From Leptotrichia sp. oral taxon 847 (GTDB taxonomy: Bacteria > Fusobacteriota > Fusobacteriia > Fusobacteriales > Leptotrichiaceae), in NCBI RefSeq assembly GCF_001553645.1, contig NZ_CP014231.1, forward strand, positions 372,001-436,000: 64,000 nucleotides of DNA, read 5' to 3'. A model generated the notes under the pieces. The model was not told the origin of the DNA. It did not search any database and saw only the letters and a list, made by a program, of their open reading frames with translations. A program made the translations under genes and the position numbers. Below are positions 51,346-53,779 of this stretch, in pieces. Numbering within the stretch: the first letter of the stretch is position 1; the number at the start of each line of letters is the position of its first letter.

Positions 51346-51478
51346 TTTATCAAAATTATAAAATTTTATTTTATTTTTAAATAAAAATATGTTAAAATAA
51401 TAATAGGATACTTGAATATTACACTTTTAAGAAAGGTGAAAATAATGTTTAAAATATATTAAACATTAGAAAATAACG

Positions 51479-52228
51479 ATGAAAAATTTAAATATTTTAG
51501 GAATGGCAACTTTAATTGCAACAAATGTAGCAAATCAAGAACTTAAAGGTGCACAACAGGAGATTGACAAAAAAACAGAAGTAAAATACATTAATAAAAA
51601 CGAAAATAATCCCACAAACAATACTAAAAAAACTAACACACAAAAAAATATGAAAAAGAAAAACTCTCACAAAAAATTGAAAAACAAAAGAAAAAAGAAA
51701 CATAGAACACGACAAGAAATTTTGTCAGGAATAGATTTCATTGATGTTGCACAATTTTTTCAAAACGACATGGAAAATGAAAAAGTTGATAAAAGAGAAA
51801 GTTTGAACAATAAAGTTGAAAAAGCGGCGTTAAACGAAGAAAACGGTAATAAAAAAAATAAAGTTATTCTCACTTCAAATCCAGATTTAATTGTTATAGA
51901 TAAAAATTTTAAAAATGAAAAAGTTAAAAATATGGGTGAAAACACAGATAAGCAAGATAAATTACAGAAAAAATTGGATAAAAAAATTTTAAAAGACAAA
52001 TTAAAAGAATTGAAGAAGAAAAAAGCCGCGCTAAAAAGAAGAATAAAAATGATGGATAGGGATTTAAAAAAAGACAATACTTTTATCACAGAAGAAATTT
52101 ATGTTCAAAATAAAAAGAATAAAAATAAAAAAGTGGTATCTGCAAAAACAGAAAAAAATCCTCAAAATGAAAAAATACTGAATGCTGATACACTAAATGT
52201 AATTACTTTTTCTAATAACTTAGATTAA
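51479..52228 (+). CDS. Lys/Asn-rich exported or secreted hypothetical protein
   Basis: This 249-residue protein begins MKNLNILGMATLIATNVANQ, a possible but weak signal peptide. The rest is highly charged, dominated by Lys, Asn and Glu, with KKKHRTRQEILSGIDFIDVA in the middle and a coiled-coil (KLKELKKKKAALKRRIKMMD) toward the end. No family was recognised. The best ribosome-binding site nearby (AAAGGTG) serves a five-codon ORF 35 bp upstream, so the real start or a leader effect is uncertain. It lies 36 bp before the His-rich lipoprotein gene and may be cotranscribed with it. Confidence 0.6.
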   Translation: MKNLNILGMATLIATNVANQELKGAQQEIDKKTEVKYINKNENNPTNNTKKTNTQKNMKKKNSHKKLKNKRKKKHRTRQEILSGIDFIDVAQFFQNDMENEKVDKRESLNNKVEKAALNEENGNKKNKVILTSNPDLIVIDKNFKNEKVKNMGENTDKQDKLQKKLDKKILKDKLKELKKKKAALKRRIKMMDRDLKKDNTFITEEIYVQNKKNKNKKVVSAKTEKNPQNEKILNADTLNVITFSNNLD

Positions 52229-52264: not shown

Positions 52265-52477
52265 ATGATAAAAAAATTAGTTTTTTCACTTTTAGTAATC
52301 GTAGGAGTAATAAATTGCTCTACGTCTTCGCAAGAATACTCAAATAGAAGATATAGACACAGACACATGGACAATGAATATAGCTGTGGTGGCTACTGTG
52401 GTGAAAACCACCATCATTATTCAAATGGCGACATTCCTTGTGGTGGGCATCATCATATGAGAGACCAGAGATATTAA
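52265..52477 (+). CDS. Small His/Cys-rich lipoprotein, putative metal binder
   Basis: This 70-residue protein has a signal peptide with the lipobox VGVINC (Cys19), so it should be lipid-anchored outside the inner membrane. The mature part of about 52 residues contains HRH, SCGGYCGENHHH and PCGGHHHM, giving three cysteines and eight histidines next to glycines. Such composition suggests binding of Zn, Ni, Co or Cu ions. ATG follows AAAGGAAATG at good spacing. A terminator closes the unit. No family was recognised. cobD, a cobalamin gene, lies next to it on the other strand, but a link is unproven. Confidence 0.72.
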   Translation: MIKKLVFSLLVIVGVINCSTSSQEYSNRRYRHRHMDNEYSCGGYCGENHHHYSNGDIPCGGHHHMRDQRY

Positions 52478-52487
52478 TTAATTTACT

Positions 52488-52530
52488 AAAGGAGATATTT
52501 CGAATTTTTTTGAAGTAGCTCCTTTTTGAT
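52488..52530 (+). terminator. Terminator after the lipoprotein gene
   Basis: AAAGGAG (52488-52494) and CTCCTTT (52519-52525) form the outer stem, with TTC/GAA pairing inside, followed by TTTTTGATTTTTT on the plus strand. It lies 11 bp after the stop. Confidence 0.75.
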
Positions 52531-52668: not shown

Positions 52669-53691
52669 TTAAATGAACATTTCAACAAATGATTTTAATA
52701 TCAAATACCCAATTTTTGCAAATAAACCGTTAAAAATTCCTTTTAAAGTTAAATATACGAAAGAAAAAATTATTAAAGTTACAAAACTTGTAACATACAT
52801 CAGACGAATATTTCTTCTTATATCCTCTGTTTTAAATTCCTTTAATTTTTTTCCTATGGTTGGCTTTTCCACAACTTTTCCAAAATATGAAGTAGGACCT
52901 CCAAATTGAACACCTAAAGCTCCAGCGACAGCACTTTCAGAATGAGCAGAATTTGGACTTTTATGTTTTTTTCTATCCCTTTTAAAAGTGTTCCATGCTC
53001 TTTTGTAATTGTATCTCAAAATAAAACTTGCAACAGTTATACATACGCCACTGATTCTTGCTGGAATAAAATTTACGACATCATCAAGTATTGCAGCAAA
53101 TTTCCCAAAATATTCATATTTTTTATTTTTATAGCCAATCATTGAGTCAAGCGTATTAATAGCTTTATAACTCATAGCTAGAGGTAATCCTCCCAAAAAC
53201 AGAAAAAACATAGGCGCTATTATTCCATCTGTTATATTTTCTGAAATAGTTTCCATTGTACTACGGATTACCGTAATTTTATCCATATTTTCAGTATCTC
53301 TCGAAACAAAATTGGATAGTTCCTTTTTTGCTTTTTCCAAATTTCCCATCTTTAAAATTTTGTAAATTTTCTCTCCACATTTACCTAAAGATTTTACCGA
53401 AAAAACTGTATACATCAAATAAATTTCAATTACTGTAAAAATTGTTTTATATTTTTTAGAAAGCAGTAAAACAAGAAACATCAAAAAAAATGTACTAATC
53501 ACAACAATTAAACTCAAAATCGCTCCCCAAAACACCATAACAATTCTATTATTTTTCCCAAATTTATAAAATTTATTTTCCAAAAAAGTTATCATTTTCC
53601 CAATTACTTGCACAGGATGTAAAATTTTTTGTGGATCGCCAAAAATTAAATCCAATATAAATGCAATTAAAATTTTAATAATAAAACTCAT
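52669..53691 (-). CDS. cobD: Adenosylcobinamide-phosphate synthase CobD/CbiB
   Basis: This 340-residue inner-membrane enzyme attaches aminopropanol (phosphate) to cobyric acid late in cobalamin synthesis. Family motifs are FILDLIFGDPQKILHPVQVI at the start, SRDTENMD, STMETISENITDGIIAP, NTLDSMIGY, ARISG and the strongly conserved SPNSAHSESAVAGALGVQFG. Several membrane helices are evident. ATG 53691 is preferred to GTG 53700, as AAAGGTG then has normal spacing. No other cobalamin gene is in the window, so it may serve a salvage pathway or have been separated from its cluster. Confidence 0.93.
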   Translation of the reverse strand: MSFIIKILIAFILDLIFGDPQKILHPVQVIGKMITFLENKFYKFGKNNRIVMVFWGAILSLIVVISTFFLMFLVLLLSKKYKTIFTVIEIYLMYTVFSVKSLGKCGEKIYKILKMGNLEKAKKELSNFVSRDTENMDKITVIRSTMETISENITDGIIAPMFFLFLGGLPLAMSYKAINTLDSMIGYKNKKYEYFGKFAAILDDVVNFIPARISGVCITVASFILRYNYKRAWNTFKRDRKKHKSPNSAHSESAVAGALGVQFGGPTSYFGKVVEKPTIGKKLKEFKTEDIRRNIRLMYVTSFVTLIIFSFVYLTLKGIFNGLFAKIGYLILKSFVEMFI

Positions 53692-53779
53692 TTTGTTCAC
53701 CTTTCAATTTAATTTTATTTTACTTTTTAATATTTTACCATATTTAAAAGGTTTTATCAAAATTTAAAATAAAAAAAGA

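Follow-up and report, generated by a model that had tools for sequence, protein, structure and literature searches.

The window analyzed here is a stretch of 64,000 nucleotides, bases 372001 to 436000 of the 2.19-Mb single-contig genome of Leptotrichia sp. oral taxon 847 (genome G000). It contains a gene for a 70-residue lipoprotein, designated P0001, which follows a Lys-rich open reading frame (ORF) on the same strand and converges on cbiB (Table 1). Relatives of P0001 occur in three other genomes of the genus, G002, G005, and G007, and residues are numbered below according to P0001 in the alignment of the four proteins (A1).

Table 1. Features of the lipoprotein locus, in coordinates of the window
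Feature	Position	Strand	Evidence and remarks
Palindrome AATGTTTAA-6-TTAAACATT in the strongly conserved leader of the Lys-rich ORF	51444..51467	+	Overlaps a 5-codon mini-ORF (MFKIY)
Lys-rich ORF, 249 aa, 36 bp 5' of the lipoprotein gene	51479..52228	+	3/13 genus genomes (G000, G005, G007)
Probable ribosome-binding site GGAAAGGAAA	52246..52255	+	Sequence; AGGA also ahead of the G005 and G007 starts
Lipoprotein gene, 70 aa, ATG to TAA	52265..52477	+	ORF; relatives in G002, G005, G007
Lipoprotein signal peptide, residues 1-17	52265..52315	+	Read from sequence; K3, K4, L5, F7, L10, I16 invariant in four
Lipobox cysteine C18, presumed lipidation site	52316..52318	+	Invariant in A1
C-x3/4-C with GYC, conserved (C41 to C45)	52385..52399	+	C41, G43, Y44, C45 invariant
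First HHH triplet, H49-51, not conserved	52409..52417	+	HHR in G002; no His there in G005, G007
PCG-(x)-HH-(x)-M end, conserved (P58 to M65), contains second HHH	52436..52459	+	P58, C59, G60, H63, M65 invariant; HH pair in 4/4
Probable intrinsic terminator stem-loop, then T-rich tract	52488..52525	+	Fold -16.3 kcal/mol, z -3.9
cbiB (adenosylcobinamide-phosphate synthase), convergent neighbor outside the lipoprotein unit	52669..53700	-	PF03186 4.6e-103, TIGR00380 4e-79

By reading, the N-terminal segment MIKKLVFSLLVIVGVINC has the basic n-region, hydrophobic h-region, and lipobox cysteine of a lipoprotein of the Lgt/Lsp type, with a signal peptide ending VIN-C18, and P0001 is probably lipid anchored in the envelope. 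The first-pass annotation had counted eight histidines and three cysteines in about 52 residues past the lipobox cysteine. These numbers proved exact: the 52 residues after C18 contain H32, H34, H49-51, and H62-64 along with C41, C45, and C59, and the two strings that had been quoted, CGGYCGENHHH and PCGGHHH, are both present to the letter. His and Cys make up 1.05% and 0.52% of residues, respectively, in a set of 34 large window ORFs, giving binomial probabilities of 9e-8 for at least eight His and 0.0025 for at least three Cys in such a tail (both calculated post hoc). Among the 244 window ORFs of at least 40 aa, P0001 ranked first for His plus Cys in a 52-aa stretch. Given the low background, the small probabilities, and this rank, the His/Cys richness is not composition noise. 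The P0001 frame had the top codon score of the six frames, yet the score itself was near zero (-0.01 bits/codon versus -0.63 to -1.26).

A stem-loop as stable as the one downstream of the gene was obtained in 0 of 200 shuffles, and the structure is recognizable by eye in G005 and G007. The consensus terminator scan did not list this stem; its sole terminator-like site lay inside the lipoprotein ORF. The Lys-rich ORF is a possible operon partner of the lipoprotein gene. Its frame is intact in G000 but broken in G005 and G007, both of which retain an intact lipoprotein gene; the breaks, in A-rich DNA, possibly reflect phase variation, decay, or assembly error. The palindrome ahead of this ORF is perfect and constitutes the single zero-mismatch site in its own genome. 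As a repeated operator it was rejected, sites with two mismatches being found only at the control level.

We then evaluated how widely the lipoprotein is distributed. The absence of orthologues had been named beforehand as refuting the first reading of this gene; a single-sequence search of 100 genomes returned three, all from the same genus (E values of 4e-10 in G002, 5e-9 in G007, and 3e-7 in G005). With a profile of the four proteins, 4 of 389 genomes matched at E<=1e-5, and these were the same four, each with a full-length gene. The carriers thus comprise 4 of the 13 genomes of the genus, with the gene at two loci. That this genus is Leptotrichia is also probable from two of its other genomes, whose Cas13a proteins align over their whole length with the solved chains 5xwp/5xwy and 5wtj, those of Leptotrichia buccalis and L. 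shahii. At the permissive threshold of E<=0.1, some match was found in 60 of 98 genomes of the phylum. The loci that we opened contained other small lipoproteins matching chiefly via the signal peptide (L007, L016, L050, L051, and L055) or, by reading, an antisense frame inside ruvB (L011). At the remaining loci, beyond those of the four relatives, the best E value was 1.5e-4.

None of the four proteins matched a Pfam or NCBIfam model over its cut-off. The matches below cut-off, among them YxzE, Nodulin_late (G005, E 0.0013), PRK07424 (G002, E 0.0012), and EexN, were rejected. Against PHROGs, P0001 had no match at E<=0.1 and the G002 protein had weak ones only (E 0.026 or worse), and profile A1 found no PDB chain at E<=5. 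No relative was found in phage and plasmid collections or in scans of genome_contigs and viral_contigs; the contig scans are weak negatives, having used a few short peptide patterns (a single one in two scans) on collections from which records near the genome of the window were perhaps excluded. Among the matches listed in a search of the open-access literature, there was no paper on this protein or on envelope metal proteins of the lineage. The structure predicted for P0001 from the single sequence was of low confidence (mean pLDDT of 56), and no site was visible in it. The earlier description of a small His/Cys-rich envelope lipoprotein outside any named family therefore stands with respect to Pfam and NCBIfam at cut-off and PHROGs at E<=0.1.

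One locus opened in the phylum search, L007, belongs to another genus (g5) of the family. It contains a 49-aa lipoprotein-like ORF (L007:1498-1647, minus strand) that ends SECGCVDGEHNH, and directly ahead of it is a large ORF (L007:1660-3141, minus strand) that contains the stretch DDGHNHGGH. The two are possibly a separate metal-binding pair.

Leptotrichia also encodes a greatly expanded set of lipoproteins of about 50 to 61 aa with the pattern ERG..CY....G..YC.D.YGN..Y (examples are L081-L100). Matches at E<=0.01, fragments included, numbered 30 in G006, 20 in G008, 16 in G010, 15 in G012, and 9 in G011, and there were none in G000, G005, or G007. Four members tried had no Pfam match at E<=0.1, and their NCBIfam matches (e.g., to EexN lipoproteins) were below cut-off. 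In G012 (contig C13), 15 small lipoprotein ORFs form a tandem array on one strand within 3.1 kb (L016:46-3112); most of their tails follow C-x-Y-x(2)-[KR]-G-x(4)-C, and their mature parts reached 86% in hhalign against the expanded family. The sets of lipoproteins used for hhalign were reduced from 46 rows to 29 and 15 rows by removal of one chance ORF and of duplicates.

The relatives are 52 to 54% identical to P0001 in alignment A1. Nineteen positions are invariant: K3, K4, L5, F7, L10, I16, C18, S19, Y30, C41, G43, Y44, C45, Y52, P58, C59, G60, H63, and M65; the tails otherwise differ. Each tail has three Cys, whereas the number of His drops from eight in P0001 and seven in G002 to three in both G007 and G005. 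The HHH clusters, the title feature of the first-pass annotation, did not withstand this comparison. They are specific to the lineage of P0001, being replaced by HHR and HHY in G002, and in G005 and G007 the first triplet is missing and an HH remains at the end; as the defining feature they are ruled out. The conserved core is C-x3/4-C followed by PCG-(x)-HH-(x)-M.

Ratios of nonsynonymous to synonymous substitution (dN/dS) between P0001 and its relatives were below 1 in all three comparisons: 0.46 with G005, 0.43 with G007, and 0.31 with G002 (one-sided Fisher P of 0.017, 0.011, and 0.0005, respectively). The close pair G005-G007 gave 0.65, which is uninformative, being indistinguishable from 1 (P of 0.5). 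For comparison, cbiB gave 0.12 to 0.14. On nucleotide alignments of the P0001 locus, the indels within the lipoprotein ORF comprised whole codons only (3, 3, 15, 3, and 6 against G005 and 3, 3, 18, 3, and 6 against G007), whereas the upstream ORF and 160 downstream columns also contained indels such as 1, 7, 10, 13, and 34. These sequence comparisons indicate that the lipoprotein is fast evolving and that its frame is kept under selection. It is a real, constrained, and genus-restricted protein.

The gene has the same setting in G000, G005, and G007: the Lys-rich ORF precedes it, and cbiB faces it. In the remaining ten genomes of the genus, the region behind cbiB contains other genes and no such lipoprotein, as judged from flank lists covering ORFs of more than 90 to 100 aa or with a lipobox-like start. 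In G002, the lipoprotein gene is flanked by the type B L31 gene on one side and ybjQ on the other. The family to which ybjQ belongs is named 'putative heavy-metal-binding', but ybjQ occupies this place without the lipoprotein in G003, G004, G009, G010, and G011 as well. In flank lists of the same scope, no lipoprotein was found behind L31 in the other 12 genomes. A link to zinc limitation via type B L31 in G002 was rejected: each of the 13 genomes has a single match to this form of L31, and since the lipoprotein lies behind it only in G002, L31 marks no special zinc response.

The L31-ybjQ flanks were aligned for the 6 of 13 genomes with ybjQ downstream, G002 included. Compared with the other five, G002 has an extra segment that carries the lipoprotein gene and its own terminator-like end. 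Between G002 and G003 (L063:8361-8567 and L115), this region shows 97.3% identity across 664 aligned columns, interrupted by a single gap of 297 and two gaps of 1. The 297-bp segment is cleanly absent in G003, and each junction falls within a T-rich tract of a terminator-like stretch. The distribution of carriers takes two changes on the cbiB tree, one for the group of G000, G005, and G007 (support of 100/100) and one for G002. Gain of the segment in G002 is simpler than loss elsewhere.

Which residues are retained in the tail bears on function. Ligand types for soft or borderline metals among the invariant tail residues are the three Cys, one His column (every protein has an HH pair there), and the Met; the others comprise Tyr, Gly, and Pro. 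Where an invariant position of the tail has a functional side chain, the residue is in most cases of a type that binds metals. DsbB was matched in none of the 13 genus genomes, compared with 6 of 14 control genomes, and VKOR exceeded its curated cut-off in none of the 13; the four that matched below it include no carrier. With no DsbB match and no VKOR over cut-off, exported Cys likely stay reduced. Because the number of tail Cys is also odd, metal is favored over disulfides, and free-thiol metal ligands are likelier than disulfide bonds.

We propose that P0001 may be an accessory, membrane-tethered buffer or scavenger of Zn(II) or Cu(I), and we give this reading about an even chance. In the mechanism that we infer, the N-terminal lipid would tether the small protein to the envelope, and its flexible tail would bind a soft or borderline transition metal, most likely Zn(II) or Cu(I). 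Binding would occur via the conserved, free thiolates of C41, C45, and C59 and the adjoining HH-M, and at the membrane the protein would have an accessory role, buffering or scavenging metal. Lineage-specific histidines, such as the HHH clusters of P0001, would add weak capacity. The metal-binding patch suggested in the first-pass annotation thus remains plausible in a sharpened form, with C-x3/4-C and PCG-HH-M rather than HHH as the candidate ligands.

Two known proteins offer a comparison. SmbP is His-rich and has neither a lipid anchor nor Cys, and the Cu(I) ligands of NosL are Cys, Met, and His. P0001 is small and His-rich like SmbP but has a lipobox and Cys; no link between the two was found, the PDB, which contains SmbP, having yielded no chain to profile A1 at the threshold given above. 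SmbP, a small protein exported to the periplasm, is reported to bind Ni(II), Cu(II), Zn(II), and Fe(III) (PMC7137794). NosL is encoded in the nos operon, has a mass of 18 kDa and two domains, is anchored through a lipobox, and binds one Cu(I) (PMC7558416); P0001 likewise has a lipobox but is 70 aa long. At E<=1, neither Pfam nor NCBIfam gave a NosL match for any of the four proteins, and no nos genes lie directly beside P0001, whose neighbors are the Lys-rich ORF, itself without a family, and cbiB. By analogy, P0001 would work like SmbP or the NosL type of small envelope metal protein without being a member of the NosL family.

A possible, if rather doubtful, alternative is that P0001 is an accessory lipoprotein that evolves fast, acts at the surface or in exclusion, and is carried on a small cassette that is gained and lost; Cys and His would serve for the shape of the tail or for contact with a partner, and any metal would be incidental. 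The patchy distribution over 4 of 13 genomes and two loci, the clean presence and absence in G002 and G003, the rapid divergence relative to cbiB, and the abundance of unrelated small two-Cys lipoproteins in the genus all fit such a role. P0001 resembles the expanded family in size, lipobox, genus, and the presence of tail Cys. However, that family has C-x8/9-C in CY..x.G..YC.D and no PCG-HH-M end, and membership of P0001 was rejected, hhalign of the mature parts giving 0.4% and no detectable homology; the 95.7% obtained at full length came from profile columns 1 to 27, mostly signal peptide. The preponderance of metal-ligand types among the invariant functional side chains of the tail also argues against this alternative.

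A role in scavenging Ni or Co for cobalamin synthesis through the adjoining cbiB is suggested by the His-rich tail of P0001 and by the adjacency of the two genes in three genomes, but we regard it as improbable. Convergent with the lipoprotein gene and separated from it by the lipoprotein's terminator stem, cbiB is matched in all 13 genomes, lipoprotein carriers or not, and the G002 lipoprotein is at another locus. The cobalt or cobalamin link is therefore weak, and the conserved thiols would fit Zn or Cu better. Improbable, too, is a redox-active or disulfide-stabilized peptide with a C41-C45 disulfide and C59 as a reactive thiol. Small redox motifs have two close Cys, as P0001 does, but the odd number of Cys, a C-C spacing that varies between x3 and x4, and the lack of a DsbB match and of VKOR over cut-off in the 13 genus genomes do not agree with it. 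Finally, an untranslated or decaying ORF, for which one could cite its shortness, the broken upstream ORF in two relatives, and the G005-G007 ratio, is scarcely credible for a gene that is full length in four genomes, has indels of whole codons alone against G005 and G007, has dN/dS below 1 in three of three P0001 pairs, and is flanked by signals resembling a ribosome-binding site and a terminator.

The proposal of a metal buffer is favored by the integrity of the lipoprotein gene in G005 and G007, where the upstream ORF is broken, and the clean G002/G003 difference is as expected for an accessory function. Counted against it are the lack of conservation of HHH, the G005-G007 ratio, and the low-confidence model; no metal gene lies directly beside the lipoprotein gene in the window, where its neighbor is the convergent cbiB. 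A more far-reaching reading, which we consider unlikely as a whole, is that P0001 would be the founding member of a genus-restricted class of minimal metallo-lipoproteins (42 to 52 residues), consisting of a lipid anchor and a three-Cys/HH-M site and carried on a mobile cassette of about 300 bp that lands between terminator T-tracts. Such a protein would be near the smallest conceivable membrane-tethered Cu(I)/Zn(II) chaperone.

Small accessory lipoproteins of Leptotrichia escape the general family libraries used here. If P0001 binds metal, it would represent a minimal membrane-tethered metal site in a lineage of oral anaerobes, of a size accessible to peptide synthesis.
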